A model generated the notes under the pieces. The model ran no database searches. It saw only the letters and a list, made by a program, of their open reading frames with translations, and was not told where the DNA came from. A stretch of DNA of 36,886 bases from Bacteroidota bacterium (lineage in GTDB: Bacteria > Bacteroidota > Ignavibacteria > UBA10030): assembly GCA_021813905.1 (NCBI GenBank), contig JAKAJH010000032.1, forward strand, positions 1 to 36,886. Direction: 5' to 3'. A program made the position numbers and the translations under genes. Of this stretch, positions 5,442 through 36,886 are shown piece by piece. The first letter of the stretch is position 1. Each line of letters starts with the position of its first letter.

Positions 5442-6242
5442 ATGAGAATCGGACTCGTGCAAAGCGCACCGGTGTTCGGTGGCGTGGAACGGAACCGCCG
5501 AAGGCTTCTGGATCTCATGGGCTCCGCCCGGGCGGATTTGTATGTGCTTCCGGAGCTGTGCCTGAGCGGGTACGTCTTTGCCGAGACGAAGGAAGTCGAA
5601 GCGCTGTCCGAGCCGGCCGACGGTCCGTCCGCTCAGCAGTTCGTGGAATTCGCCCGAAAGACGGGCTCGTTCGTGGTGTTCGGATTCGCCGAGCGGAGTA
5701 CGCATCTCTACAATTCGGCTGCGCTGGTTGGTCCGGACGGACTCGTGGGAGTGTATCGCAAGGTCCATCTGTTCGACCGGGAACGATTGTTCTTTGCGCC
5801 GGGTGATCGGGGATTCCCCGTGTTCGATCTGCCGTTCGGTCGTGTCGGGATGATGATCTGCTTTGACTGGATCTTTCCCGAGAGCGCCCGGTCGCTCGCG
5901 CTTCGCGGCGCACAGCTTATTGCCCATCCGTCCAATCTCGTCCTGCCGCACTGCCCCGATGCAATGGTAACGCGCTGCCTGGAGAATCGCGTGTTTGCCG
6001 CGACGGCGGACCGCGTGGGTCGCGAACTCCATGCGGGGCGCTCACTGACATTCATCGGCACAAGCGAAGTGGTGTCACCCTCCGGCGAGATCCTGACGCG
6101 CATGTCCCGTGATGAGGAGGGTGTTGCGCTGTGCGATGTTGACCCGGCGGCTGCATTGCAGAAGCAGGTCACGCCGATGAGCGATGTGTTCGAAGGCCGG
6201 CGCCCGGATCAGTACACGCTGGGCCGTCCGGACATCGGTTGA
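5442..6242 (+). CDS. Carbon-nitrogen hydrolase (nitrilase superfamily)
   Basis: A soluble amidase-like enzyme that hydrolyses a non-peptide C-N bond. The superfamily Glu-Lys-Cys triad is visible: Glu in LPELCLSGY, Lys in YRKVHLFDRE and Cys in MMICFDWIFPE. The 266-aa length is usual for single-domain members (omega-amidase, N-carbamoylputrescine amidase and relatives). HPSNLVLPHC followed by RCLENRVFAATADRVG is typical of an uncharacterised bacterial/archaeal branch, so I do not name a substrate. I chose the ATG at 5442 because the family N-terminus MRIGLVQ starts there and a GAGAG/GGGAGA purine stretch precedes it. An in-frame ATG at 5370 would add 24 residues that look non-coding. Its TGA is embedded in the -35 box of the tRNA-Arg promoter. 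Confidence 0.9.
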   Translation: MRIGLVQSAPVFGGVERNRRRLLDLMGSARADLYVLPELCLSGYVFAETKEVEALSEPADGPSAQQFVEFARKTGSFVVFGFAERSTHLYNSAALVGPDGLVGVYRKVHLFDRERLFFAPGDRGFPVFDLPFGRVGMMICFDWIFPESARSLALRGAQLIAHPSNLVLPHCPDAMVTRCLENRVFAATADRVGRELHAGRSLTFIGTSEVVSPSGEILTRMSRDEEGVALCDVDPAAALQKQVTPMSDVFEGRRPDQYTLGRPDIG

Positions 6243-6267
6243 TATCCCTCCGAAGCTTTTGTATATT
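6239..6267 (+). promoter_or_regulatory. Predicted promoter of the tRNA-Arg repeat locus
   Basis: TTGATA (6239-6244), 17 bp, TATATT (6262-6267): a near-consensus sigma70-type promoter whose -35 box contains the stop codon of the hydrolase gene. Transcription would start near 6274, about 190 bases before the mature tRNA, and run through the decayed tRNA copy and the tandem repeats to the hairpin at 6861-6890. Confidence 0.7.
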
Positions 6268-6326
6268 CGAGTGTCCCGTGTTCATGCCGCTGAAGCTCCC
6301 GCCTTCACTTTGTTTCGACGGGCAGG

Positions 6327-6393
6327 CAGCATGGAGAGAGCAGCGGTTTCTTCCGAAGCGGCTGAACGGATTGAACGAAGTGATGCTCCGTTG
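6327..6393 (+). pseudogene. Decayed copy of tRNA-Arg and its 3' flank
   Basis: Bases 6327-6352 match the D arm through anticodon loop of the intact tRNA (6474-6499) with 24 of 26 identities. Bases 6377-6393 match the flank just after the tRNA (6541-6557) with 15 of 17 identities. In the intact locus these blocks are about 17 bases further apart, so the stretch that held the tRNA 3' half is shortened and diverged. No T arm or acceptor pairing remains, so it cannot give a working tRNA. It lies inside the predicted primary transcript. The rest of 6268-6461 shows no other feature I recognise. Confidence 0.65.
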
Positions 6394-6461
6394 AGTGCCA
6401 CTTTGAGAATCCGGACGAAGTCGGACCGAACAGCAGAGATTGTCATAGCAGAGTTACTCGA

Positions 6462-6536
6462 GCCCCTGTAGCTCAGCATGGATAGAGCAGCGGTTTCCTA
6501 AACCGTTGGTCGGACGTTCGAATCGTCTCAGGGGCA
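6462..6536 (+). tRNA. tRNA-Arg (anticodon CCT)
   Basis: All cloverleaf parts are present. Acceptor GCCCCTG (6462-6468) pairs with CAGGGGC (6529-6535), with A6536 as discriminator base. The anticodon stem GCGGT/ACCGT encloses the loop TTCCTAA, giving anticodon CCU, which reads the AGG arginine codon. The T arm loop is TTCGAAT. CCA is not encoded. The last 26 bases (6511-6536) are repeated downstream at 6637 and, imperfectly, at 6763. Confidence 0.96.
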
Positions 6537-6787
6537 CGAAGAAGTCCTGCTCCGTTGGCCCGCGGAAAGCGCGGGGTGCTCATGATTGCCGACGCGCTCG
6601 TTGCGCTCCGCTGACTCGCACGTGCAATCATGGCATCGGACGTTCGAATCGTCTCAGGGGCACGAAGAAGTCCTGCTCCGTTGGCCCGCGGAAAGCGCGG
6701 GGTGCTCATGATTGCCGACGCGCTCGTTGCGCTCCGCTGACTCACACGTGCAATCATGGCATCGGACATTCGAATCGTCTCAGGGCA
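6511..6787 (+). repeat. 126-bp tandem repeat seeded by the tRNA-Arg 3' end
   Basis: Two complete 126-base units (6511-6636 and 6637-6762) differ at one position (G6618 versus A6744). A 25-base partial third unit follows (6763-6787) with one substitution and one missing G. Each unit starts with the tRNA T arm and acceptor 3' strand; in the first unit this is part of the functional tRNA. The rest of the unit can fold: CCCGCG/CGCGGG (6559-6564 with 6570-6575) and CATGATTGC/GCAATCATG (6581-6589 with 6624-6632), repeated in unit 2. No integrase, transposase or plausible reading frame is present. The layout resembles the tyrT repeats of E. coli that give rtT RNA; the sequences themselves were not compared. 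Confidence 0.92.
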
Positions 6788-6860
6788 CACTCGATTTTTG
6801 TGTCGGTCGGCTCGTTGACCGGCACGCCTCCGCTGAAGAGGGATGTTCTCTGTTCTTGAC

Positions 6861-6890
6861 GCCAATTTCGGATCGCCGGAATTGGCTTTT
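6861..6890 (+). terminator. Intrinsic terminator of the tRNA-Arg locus
   Basis: An 11-bp stem (6861-6871 with 6876-6886; one T-G pair) closed by the loop ATCG is followed directly by TTTT. It ends the tRNA-Arg/repeat transcript about 60 bases before proS. From 6788 to 6860 I see nothing assignable. Confidence 0.75.
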
Positions 6891-6950
6891 GTATGCCGGC
6901 GCGGTTCAGGCCGGTGTGAGCCTGTCCAATCATTTGTTGAGTAAACATTC

Positions 6951-8645
6951 ATGCGACTGTCGACCGCGTTCGTTCCCACACTCAAAGAAACACCCACCGA
7001 CGCCACCATCCCCAGCCACCAGCTGATGCTGCGGGCGGGACTGATGCGTCAGCTCACGTCCGGCGTGTATTCATACTTGCCGCTGGGTTACCGGGCGATG
7101 ATGAAAGCGATGGCCATCGTCCGTCAGGAGATGGATGCCATCGGCGGGCAGGAATTTCAGCTGCCGGCGCTGAACCCGGAAGCACTCTGGGTGCAGACCG
7201 GACGCCGCAACGTGCCGAACTTCATTCTGAGCGTGAAGGAACGTGATCTGGTGCTGGCGCCGACGCACGAGGAAGTGATCGGCTATCTGGCCAGCATGCA
7301 CATCCAATCGTACAAGGATCTGCCGCAGATCTGGTATCAGATCCAGACGAAATTCCGGAATGAACCGAGGCCCCGCTCCGGCGTGCTGCGCGGCCGTCAG
7401 TTCATCATGAAGGATGCGTACACCCTCGACCGCTCGTGGGAGGATCTCGACAAGGGGTACGAGGCGCATGCGGGAGCGTACCGGCGCATCTTCTCCCGGT
7501 GCGGACTCGATTTCTTCGTCGTCGGCGCGTCCAGCGGCGCAATGGGAGGGACGGGCTCGCAGGAATTCATGATCGAGTCGAAATTCGGCGAGGATACGGT
7601 GGCCCGATGCCGTTCGTGCGGCTATGCGTCCAACCTGGAAGTAGCGACCTCCGGCGTTGCGCCGGTGGGGAAGACGGGCAACAACGGCCCGACCGAAGAG
7701 ATCCACACGCCGAACGTCCGCACGATCGACGAGCTCGTTACGTTCCTCAAGGTGGATCATTCGCGGCTCGCCAAATCGGTCGTCTATCGCCACGACGGCA
7801 AGCCCGTTCTTCTGCTCATGATGGGGAACGATCAGCTCAACGAAAGCAAACTGACGGCCATCCTGGGCGGCGGCGACATCTCGGCGATGCCGGCGGAGGA
7901 TCTGCGTGTCCTCACGGGCGCGGATGGCGGCTCGATCGGACCCGTGGGACTGAAAGGATTTCGCATCATCGCAGATAAGCGGCTCGAAGGCGCCAACGGA
8001 CTTGTGAGCGGCGCGAACCGCAATGATTATCATCTTGCGAACATCGATCTTTCGCGGGATGCGGTGATCGAGCGGTACGCCGATCTGCGCACGGTAGAAG
8101 ACGGCGAGCCGTGTCCGAAGTGCGGCAAGCCCCTGGTGGTCTCCAACGCGATCGAGCTTGGACACATCTTCAAGCTGGGCACGAAGTACTCCGAGGCGCT
8201 CAACATCCGGTTCCTCGACGAGAACGGCCAGTCGCAGCTCGTGATCATGGGGAGCTACGGCATCGGCATCGAGCGCATCGTGGCGTGCGCCCTCGAACAG
8301 AGCCATGATGAAAATGGCATCATCTGGCCGAAGAGCATCGCTCCGTATCAGGTTCACCTGATCGGGGTGAATATGAGCAACCCGGCCGTCGCCGAGCAGG
8401 CGAACCTCCTGTACGACGGGCTGACAAAGGCCGGCGTCGAAGTACTCTTCGACGATCGCGCGAACATCTCGCCGGGGTTCAAATTCAAGGATGCCGATCT
8501 GCTCGGGATGCCGATCCACGTGATCGTGGGCGAGAAGGGATTGAAGAATCAGCAGGTCGAGATCAAGCGACGGGCGACCGGCGAGCGGACGATGATCCCG
8601 CTGGCCGGAGCCGCGGAAGCGATCCGCAACATAACCACGAACTGA
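6951..8645 (+). CDS. proS: Prolyl-tRNA synthetase, bacterial type
   Basis: Charges tRNA-Pro with proline in the cytosol. The 564-aa length is that of bacterial-type ProS, with an editing insertion inside the class II catalytic domain. Visible parts: N-terminal MLRAGLMRQLTSGVYSYLPLGYRAM; class II motif 2 region FRNEPRPRSGVLRGRQFIMKD (residues ~137-157); a YbaK-like insertion domain around residues 230-390 that clears Ala-tRNA-Pro; the motif 3 region MGSYGIGIERIVACALEQ; and a C-terminal anticodon-binding domain from about residue 465. No strong Shine-Dalgarno sequence precedes the ATG, but the N-terminus fits the family exactly. It is transcribed downstream of the tRNA-Arg terminator and is followed six bases later by the aldehyde dehydrogenase gene. 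Confidence 0.97.
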   Translation: MRLSTAFVPTLKETPTDATIPSHQLMLRAGLMRQLTSGVYSYLPLGYRAMMKAMAIVRQEMDAIGGQEFQLPALNPEALWVQTGRRNVPNFILSVKERDLVLAPTHEEVIGYLASMHIQSYKDLPQIWYQIQTKFRNEPRPRSGVLRGRQFIMKDAYTLDRSWEDLDKGYEAHAGAYRRIFSRCGLDFFVVGASSGAMGGTGSQEFMIESKFGEDTVARCRSCGYASNLEVATSGVAPVGKTGNNGPTEEIHTPNVRTIDELVTFLKVDHSRLAKSVVYRHDGKPVLLLMMGNDQLNESKLTAILGGGDISAMPAEDLRVLTGADGGSIGPVGLKGFRIIADKRLEGANGLVSGANRNDYHLANIDLSRDAVIERYADLRTVEDGEPCPKCGKPLVVSNAIELGHIFKLGTKYSEALNIRFLDENGQSQLVIMGSYGIGIERIVACALEQSHDENGIIWPKSIAPYQVHLIGVNMSNPAVAEQANLLYDGLTKAGVEVLFDDRANISPGFKFKDADLLGMPIHVIVGEKGLKNQQVEIKRRATGERTMIPLAGAAEAIRNITTN

Positions 8646-35220: not shown

Positions 35221-35309
35221 GTCAAGGGTTCACCCCACCCGGCCTCCCCGTCACCCCGAGCCACGTCGAGGGGCGCGAACGAGGGGAGGAGAATAGGTCG
35301 GACATTTCT

Positions 35310-35334
35310 CGCTCCCAAACTCTGTTTGGGAGCG
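35310..35334 (+). repeat. CGCTCCCAAAC / GTTTGGGAGCG palindrome
   Basis: A perfect 11-bp stem with loop TCT. A diverged relative with the same loop lies at 36413-36437 (CGCTCCCGAAC / GCTTGGGAACG, two mismatches). Just before it, 35250-35276 carries a CACCCCGAGCCACGTCGAGG-type element. Confidence 0.75.
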
Positions 35335-35403
35335 TGTACTGCAGTCTGTTTGCGCGGTGCCGTTTCGATGCGGGAGCATCGCAGCGAGTGGTAGGCGAAC
35401 TCT

Positions 35404-35423
35404 CCCCACGCTTCAGCGTGGGG
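35404..35423 (+). repeat. CCCCACGC-TTCA-GCGTGGGG palindrome, three copies
   Basis: A 20-base hairpin with an 8-bp stem. Copies lie at 35404-35423, 36511-36530 and 36816-36835 (the last with loop TTTA). Each copy sits upstream of a GGCTTCAGCC/GGCTGAAGCC element, 24 bases away at the first copy and the second. Confidence 0.85.
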
Positions 35424-35447
35424 TGGCGGACGACAGTCAGATAAGAG

Positions 35448-35477
35448 GGCTTCAGCCCGGTTCCTGCGGCTGAAGCC
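35448..35477 (+). repeat. GGCTTCAGCC ... GGCTGAAGCC inverted repeat, three copies
   Basis: Two 10-bp arms, each itself palindrome-like, separated by CGGTTCCTGC. Copies lie at 35448-35477 and 36555-36584, with a third beginning at 36860 and cut by the window end. The first two are followed by the same CGGTTGGAGTTTGT stretch. Confidence 0.88.
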
Positions 35478-35501
35478 GGTTGGAGTTTGTTTTGGTACGC
35501 C

Positions 35502-35525
35502 AACCGCAGCCTGAAGGCTGCGGTT
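35502..35525 (+). repeat. AACCGCAGCC-TGAA-GGCTGCGGTT palindrome
   Basis: A perfect 10-bp stem with a TGAA loop. It shares the TGAA loop with the neighbouring elements and with the copy at 31845-31858. Confidence 0.75.
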
Positions 35526-35597
35526 AGTAGGAGTTCGAATCGCTTCTCTCAGCTCAGGGCGTACTCGGATATTTGGCGGCAGGTCCTGAATAGGCAG

Positions 35598-35631
35598 GTA
35601 CGTGGTGAGCTCGTCGAACCACGTCGCGAAC
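35598..35631 (+). repeat. GTACGTGGTGAGCTCGTCGA-type palindromic repeat, three copies
   Basis: Copies at 35598-35631, 35730-35763 and 36617-36651. The arms ACGTGGT and ACCACGT flank a GAGC(T)CGTCGA centre, and a CGCGAAC-like tail follows. The first and third share the lead-in AGGCAGGTACGTGG. A related CCTTCGACATACTCAGGACG element lies at 35673-35692. Confidence 0.85.
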
Positions 35632-36468
35632 AGTTATGGTTCGAATCGTCCCTCGCTTCGCTCGGGACAGGTCCTTCGACATACTCAGGACGTACTAGGC
35701 TACGCGGGACAAGCCTTCAAAAAGCCCAAGTACGTGGTGAGCTCGTCGAACCACGTCGCGAACAAGATCAGGAACCGTTCTGTAGGAAGCTACGACGGCA
35801 CCTCGGGAAGCCGGCCTCATGCATCGGAAAGGGAACTTGTGGCGGAGCAGTATCTCGCGGCGCGCCGCGACAGTCTCCGCCTCGTCTATGAAGACGTTTG
35901 AAAGGCGCCGGAGCAATTCTGCGGTTTTTCAGGAGGCTCCTTAATCTTCCATGAAACGCTCTGAGGTCAACTGAAAGCGTTTTGTTGCGGTATCGGCGCG
36001 AGCTTGCGGCGATGTTGGCAGCTCTTCGAGCCTCAGGGTCAATTCTGAAAGGCTTATGATCATCCCTTCATCTCTTGTGGACCTTCTTGGGCCGAATCAT
36101 GACTCTGCTTGACCGTCAGGGGACGATTCTGAGAGGTTGATGGAACTTTCCGAAGGAATATTTTGGCGACACGAACGGATATTGACATCTGTTCGGGTTT
36201 TGGTACGGAATCCGGAAGCTTCATGGATGGTCTCTTAGCGGTTCTTGGGCACACCGGAACGCTTCTGAGCGGAGTTTTTCTGTAGTGACTACAAAATATT
36301 CTTACCGATGGCTCCTTTCACGCTCAAATGCACGGCGTGTATCGACCTTTGAGCAGACCTGACGTGCCGATTTCATGGCCTGGGCTCCGTGTTCATCCGG
36401 TGATCGTTTCCTCGCTCCCGAACTCTGCTTGGGAACGAATATTCAGCGCAAAAGCGAAGCTGCCCGAT

Positions 36469-36581
36469 GCGTCAGCATCTCCTCGCGTGTCAGCGTCCGT
36501 GGGCAGTTCTCCCCACGCTTCAGCGTGGGGTCATCGCTCACAGCCCAACAAGAGGGCTTCAGCCCGGTTCCTGCGGCTGAA
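36469..36581 (+). repeat. 113-bp direct repeat, copy 1
   Basis: Matches 36774-36886 over 113 bases with about five substitutions. The block contains the CCCCACGC hairpin and the first arms of the GGCTTCAGCC element, preceded by GCGTCAGCATCTCCTCGCGT. Confidence 0.85.
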
Positions 36582-36773
36582 GCCGGTTGGAGTTTGTTAG
36601 GTACACCAACAGGCAGGTACGTGGTGAGCCCCGTCGAACCACGTCTCGAACGATATCCGCACCGGACATTGTCATCAAGGTTCCGTTGCGGCGCTGGAAC
36701 GCTGCAACGAGAGGTAGGAGAACCGTTCTCAAGCTGAATCGGTGTGGGGGAGCGATTTCCCCAACGCGAGCGT

Positions 36774-36886
36774 GCGTCAGCATCTCTTCGCGTGTCAGCG
36801 TTCGTGTGCAGCTCTCCCCACGCTTTAGCGTGGGGTCATCGCTCACAGCCCAACAAGAGGGCTTCAGCCCGGTTCCTGCGGCTGAA
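36774..36886 (+). repeat. 113-bp direct repeat, copy 2 (runs off the window)
   Basis: Second copy of the block at 36469-36581, offset 305 bases. It reaches the last base of the window, so the true repeat may be longer. Confidence 0.85.

Follow-up and report, generated by a model that had tools for sequence, protein, structure and literature searches.

Repeats carrying part of a tRNA next to the intact gene have been described at tyrT/tyrV of Escherichia coli K-12, and a function as a structured RNA has been proposed for the resulting rtT RNA. Short double hairpins that behave as insertions are known from REP/BIME, from Rickettsia palindromic elements and from mitochondrial double-hairpin elements. 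Islands that enter tRNA genes leave displaced fragments beside the restored tRNA as their known mark (PMC9897764; PMC4383910). Lastly, the GIY-YIG enzyme SegB of phage T6 cleaves inside tRNA genes; it prefers RAWTSGAAC, which is the T-loop consensus GTTCSAWTY read on the opposite strand. SegB is needed for the tandem amplification of tRNA-Tyr, in which the tRNA plus segB are amplified (PMC13096335).

The locus reported here lies in a window of 36,886 nucleotides (the whole stretch of DNA that was analysed), which is contig C25 of a genome of 3.08 Mb assembled into 90 contigs. Between a nitrilase-like ORF ending at 6242 and proS, which starts at 6951, ARAGORN and Rfam (63.6 bits) both place an intact tRNA-Arg(CCT) at 6462-6536/7, as the first-pass annotation had it; this is the only CCT tRNA found in the whole genome. 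The two near-identical 126-bp units and partial third unit reported behind the tRNA were also recovered, with 6510-6635 and 6636-6761 being 99% identical (one mismatch) and the partial unit comprising 24 nt (6762-6785) at 96% identity. The units had been described as beginning with the tRNA's final 26 bases. That sequence is indeed found there, but the description reflects a choice of register. The unit was re-read by aligning the tRNA to its surroundings with long insertions permitted (hereafter spliced alignment). Each unit is then a copy of the 3′ half of the tRNA, beginning at approximately t35 and running to about t76; a double hairpin of 77 nt splits it in the variable loop, after t48. 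Moreover, a 5′ piece of the tRNA (t13-t36) lies upstream at 6327-6350, split at the anticodon by another hairpin-forming stretch; this piece had been overlooked in the earlier inventory. Together, the upstream and downstream pieces amount roughly to two halves of one tRNA and flank the working gene. The features of the locus are as follows.

6239..6267, + strand: sigma-70-like promoter site, probably of the tRNA transcript (consensus match only, 10/12; 0.3 expected in shuffles)
6327..6350, + strand: displaced 5′ piece of tRNA-Arg, t13-t36 (23/24 identical)
6351..6425, + strand: hairpin-forming insert at the anticodon of the 5′ piece, end approximate (fold; comparison with L009, a relative's locus)
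6462..6536, + strand: working tRNA-Arg(CCT), the sole CCT tRNA found in the genome (ARAGORN, Rfam)
6545..6558, + strand: displaced 3′ copy 1, first part, t35-t48 (spliced alignment, three mismatches)
6559..6635, + strand: 77-nt double-hairpin insert 1, in the variable loop (spliced alignment; folds)
6636..6663, + strand: displaced 3′ copy 1, second part, t49-t76 (identical to the tRNA)
6671..6684, + strand: displaced 3′ copy 2, first part (126 bp after copy 1)
6685..6761, + strand: double-hairpin insert 2 (one mismatch to insert 1)
6762..6785, + strand: displaced 3′ copy 2, second part, t49-t72, which is the partial third unit (one mismatch)
6861..6886, + strand: terminator-like hairpin, then TTTT (1 found against 1.0 expected by chance; weak alone)

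The promoter that had been proposed for this locus is thus retained as a promoter-like site. The terminator, which had been called strong, does consist of a hairpin followed by TTTT, but shuffled sequences yield as many. Two hairpins per unit, claimed previously, were also obtained by fold prediction; against shuffles, the insert plus its flanks is more stable than most (RNA z -1.7, DNA z -2.6), but the full 125-nt stretch is not unusually stable (z -0.64). Lying between a promoter-like site and a terminator-like hairpin, and having an anatomy in common with rtT, the repeats may possibly be transcribed as a structured RNA. That they are kept for a function of such an RNA is nonetheless improbable, given that their presence and copy number vary among close relatives at the same tRNA (see below), that insert sequences differ from tRNA to tRNA, and that the full stretch lacks unusual stability and has no Rfam match.

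The same spliced alignment was applied to tyrT/tyrV of E. coli K-12 and returned four copies, each consisting of t59-66, 68 nt of insert and t67-85. In other words, the rtT repeats consist of the tRNA-Tyr T-arm, with a hairpin insert of 68 nt dividing its T-loop. In anatomy, the analogy to tyrT/rtT drawn in the first-pass annotation is therefore sound. It does not extend to the RNA family. The RtT covariance model (RF00391) had no match in positions 6200-6950 of the window even at an E value of 10, with the four E. coli copies scoring 133-138 bits as a positive control, and the array was ruled out as an RtT RNA by cmscan. The array repeats have a tRNA 3′ end and hairpins, but the split is in the variable loop and the T-arm is intact.

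The 126-bp unit had no match elsewhere in the 3.08-Mb genome, and the loop core of the insert, searched in the genome with up to one mismatch, was confined to the array. Membership of a family of REP-like dispersed palindromes was rejected on both counts. Likewise, no hairpin excess was found across 437 kb of the genome, a density that offers no support for the hairpins being a genome-wide REP-like family there. Elsewhere in the window, overlapping ORFs at 35222-36846 contain repeated peptides (QVRGELVEPRREQ, PTLKRGES) and look like translated dispersed repeats; a perfect hairpin with 11-bp arms lies at 35310-35334. In two related genomes, G022 and G003, related hairpins also occur outside tRNAs, some of them in coding sequence. 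By eye, the hairpin GGCGGATCCGCCTCCGGCGGA is found in apparent coding sequences of G022 (L364-L366) just before an NPF-type motif of secreted proteins. Also by eye, double hairpins of the anticodon-loop type precede apparent Ser/Thr kinase genes in G003 (L387, L393, L395, L396), and at these kinase-like loci the gene start is partially duplicated.

A search for the units next to tRNA-Arg(CCT) in related genomes had been suggested as a check, and when run it showed that displaced pieces recur. The relatives, gathered in a scan with the downstream prolyl-tRNA synthetase, are uncultured Ignavibacteria-like Bacteroidota (UBA10030, fen_1299 and others). At the same tRNA in family relatives, 3′ pieces were found downstream (L007, L008, L010, L020, L025, L027) and 5′ pieces upstream (L005, L009), with those of L009 forming three 196-bp repeats and part of a fourth. 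The inserts fall in the anticodon, D, variable or T loops. Copy number differs between L007 and L008, which come from two genomes of one genus. As for an assembly artefact, the genome is spread over 90 contigs, and assemblies can miscount short tandem repeats; however, the units are not identical to one another, and independent genomes show the same architecture, among them E. coli K-12 and G182, a single-contig genome with three-copy arrays. An artefact is therefore scarcely credible.

Five related genomes were surveyed for displaced copies, with a reach of 700/900 bases for G022 and G003 and 600/700 for the others. Copies were found at 61/212 tRNA genes, namely 11/41 in the array's own genome, 15/43 in G010, 11/43 in G022, 18/42 in G003 and 6/43 in G033, which belongs to another family. 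Control queries, consisting of reversed or reverse-complemented tRNAs, gave 0 matches in the three genomes that the control covered (own, G010 and G033). The pieces have a marked polarity: 82 of the 89 are 5′ pieces upstream (41) or 3′ pieces downstream (41) of the tRNA (Fisher p 4e-17), and some of the exceptions look like cross-hits between neighbouring tRNAs. Moreover, 37 of 46 distinct inserts (a set that includes the 4 E. coli rtT copies) are located in loops, a bias that is real, although the loop definition is wide and covers ~54% of interior junctions. The T-loop accounts for 24, at or near TTC^GA, and many inserts of the surveyed genomes split this motif preferred by SegB. Many of the distinct inserts start with CCCGCC or TCC[CG] and finish with GGCGGG or [CG]GGA.

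At tRNA-Ser(GCT) (L358) and tRNA-Leu(TAG) (L356) of G003, the working tRNA lies inside the loop of the hairpin that splits an older copy of the same tRNA, so that the tRNA genes are nested. Extended to a general model, this arrangement gives a very good fit at single loci such as these but fails at one-sided ones, and was retained as a special case.

The array could also be read as the remnants of a tyrosine-integrase island, or of phage integration, at the tRNA gene, since islands are known to leave displaced fragments next to the tRNA genes that they restore (PMC9897764; PMC4383910). Yet no integrase gene lies beside tRNA-Arg, the 126-bp units being too short for an island and too small to contain such a gene. 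Across the survey, upstream 5′ pieces equalled downstream 3′ pieces in number (41 each), and the fragments are split by hairpins. This explanation is already unlikely, and we give it very little credence.

Short ORFs were found between the working tRNA and the displaced copy at tRNA-Asn of the array's own genome, tRNA-Pro(GGG) of G003 and tRNA-Ser(GGA) of G022. Three proteins of this kind, when compared with Pfam, proved to be GIY-YIG domains (E 1e-10 to 1e-13). Seven aligned nuclease proteins have Tyr, Tyr, Gly, Arg, His and Glu in common, and a profile of the seven finds UPF0213 proteins, SLX1 and I-TevI in PDB. The association of these genes with tRNAs is very strong. In the five genomes, 13/29 small GIY-YIG genes lie <400 bp from a tRNA, where 0.3 would be expected. 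One of these genes, taken as query, had matches in 74/148 Bacteroidota genomes, and 26 of its best 30 loci are within 370 bp of a tRNA. Conversely, partial copies are present near 43/51 of the tRNAs examined that lie <500 bp from a GIY-YIG gene, some of these copies belonging to a neighbouring tRNA of the same kind. The parts are arranged as [5′ piece with hairpin][GIY-YIG][tRNA] or [tRNA][GIY-YIG][3′ piece with hairpin], and the GIY-YIG gene is on the tRNA strand in nearly every case.

The array's own genome contains a complete unit of this type, comprising tRNA-Asn, a GIY-YIG gene and displaced t57-76 at +590 (L406, G000:C50, ~59406-59869). In other genomes whole units occur in tandem, as 3 x 345 bp at tRNA-Leu(TAA) (L465), 3 x 323 bp at tRNA-Ser(TGA) (L463) and 3 x 317 bp at tRNA-Pro(CGG) (L464). 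A further locus (L462, G111:C34 6988-9766) contains eight tandem GIY-YIG genes, ~364 bp apart, with tRNA 3′-end pieces and TCCGCC..GGCGGA hairpins between them and no intact tRNA nearby. At L470 (G089:C44), two tandem GIY-YIG genes come after a tmRNA gene and share its strand.

The array's own genome has a second small GIY-YIG gene (L416, G000:C53, ~76921-77118), flanked on its two sides by copies of a stable-RNA-like 3′ end (CCCCCGCTACAAG), of which the second is split by a small hairpin; the RNA has no ARAGORN or Rfam name. In G022, a group I intron (RF00028, 887-1149) lies ~260 bp before a GIY-YIG gene at 1408-1815 (L418, G022:C13).

Much of this pattern could be produced by a local tandem duplication with its ends in or beside the tRNA arms (through replication slippage at hairpins), after which small mobile palindromes entered the dead copies, with the GIY-YIG genes as separate visitors. 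Consistent with this, a direct duplication at tRNA-Thr(CGT) abuts the gene without a spacer, the hairpins of G022 and G003 are found outside tRNAs and even in coding sequence, and most copies in the array's own family have no nuclease gene. However, such a sequence of events predicts neither the link between GIY-YIG genes and tRNAs nor their position between the working tRNA and the displaced copy, and the hairpins are undispersed in the array's own genome. We regard it as rather unlikely.

Given the demonstrated anatomy, spread, polarity, loop bias, GIY-YIG/tRNA link and tandem whole units, we favour, with a probability of roughly 0.55, the view of the array as a footprint left by a small tRNA-restoring element in which a nuclease gene was either lost or never present. 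The array is placed with these elements because of its anatomy and because a complete unit exists elsewhere in the same genome. Its single intact tRNA is accompanied by displaced parts, the 5′ part before it and the 3′ parts after it, with hairpin inserts in their loops. There is no GIY-YIG gene between the tRNA and the displaced parts, the 126-bp units being too short for one, and no GIY-YIG ORF was found on the contig. As the units hold no such gene, the array can only be called a nuclease-less relative, and this absence, seen also in most copies of its own family, counts against our reading. An earlier suggestion that the repeats are the scar of repeated integration at the tRNA end comes nearer to it, except that the likely agent would be a GIY-YIG nuclease element and not an integrase island.

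By this mechanism the nuclease would cut a tRNA gene in a conserved loop, and repair from an element-bearing copy would insert the unit. Entering at the loop, the unit would supply the missing part of the tRNA, leaving one working tRNA. The original half, bearing a hairpin in its loop, would be left outside, with 5′ halves upstream and 3′ halves downstream. A complete element would carry its small GIY-YIG gene (UPF0213/SLX1/I-TevI-like by sequence) on the tRNA strand, between the working tRNA and the displaced half. Units might then accumulate in tandem because the restored tRNA would remain a target. The unit of the array would itself derive from a nuclease-bearing unit. A displaced copy may be protected by its hairpin against being cut again, an idea that fails to cover the array because the variable-loop insert leaves the T-loop motif of its displaced copies intact. 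Phage T6 SegB provides independent support for the cutting step (PMC13096335). Against this, SegB of phage T4 adjoins tRNAs, and no displaced copies were found at the T4 tRNAs near segB.

More broadly, and tentatively, there may be widespread minimal selfish elements in Bacteroidota, made of a GIY-YIG gene of ~80-100 codons and a tRNA part, that home into tRNA and tmRNA genes at loops and restore the tRNA each time, with the hairpin blocking recutting of the displaced part. The array would then be a non-autonomous member, and E. coli rtT a nuclease-less relict of a similar process. We put this wider proposal at somewhat below even odds. The array is probably akin to free-standing homing-type elements, with some chance of being a distinct class. 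Openly licensed papers yielded no description of chromosomal units that combine GIY-YIG genes and tRNAs with hairpin-split copies, which does not in itself prove novelty; the literature that we found concerns SegB in phages and displaced fragments from islands.

If correct, this interpretation would name an agent for partial tRNA repeats, which have been hard to explain since rtT, and would link these repeats with small GIY-YIG nucleases, which resemble UPF0213 in sequence and have a poorly known cellular role. It would also predict target sites. For annotation, partial tRNAs and short ORFs reading out of tRNA genes would often be parts of one element. Moreover, the old question of the nature of rtT would become testable.

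Compared with known systems, the array resembles REP/BIME, the Rickettsia palindromic elements and the mitochondrial double-hairpin elements in having short double hairpins that act as insertions, but its hairpins are tied to broken tRNA copies and are undispersed in their own genome. With tyrosine-integrase islands it shares a target tRNA that is split and restored while a displaced fragment remains (PMC4383910); in contrast to islands, the tRNA-copy units are ~60-470 bp, lack an integrase, have hairpins inside the fragment and involve the 5′ part as often as the 3′ part. SegB of phages T4 and T6 is a larger protein (T4 segB is 666 bp) and the T4 locus is without displaced hairpin-split tRNA copies, yet the likeness to the proposed elements extends to a free-standing GIY-YIG gene beside tRNA genes, tandem amplification and, if the proposed mechanism holds, cutting in tRNA genes. 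Finally, the rtT unit of E. coli is 178 bp as opposed to 126 bp, its insert is in the T-loop rather than the variable loop, and no nuclease gene is annotated at the locus; what tyrT/tyrV and the array have in common is a set of repeats behind a tRNA, in which the tRNA 3′ end is split by a hairpin insert.
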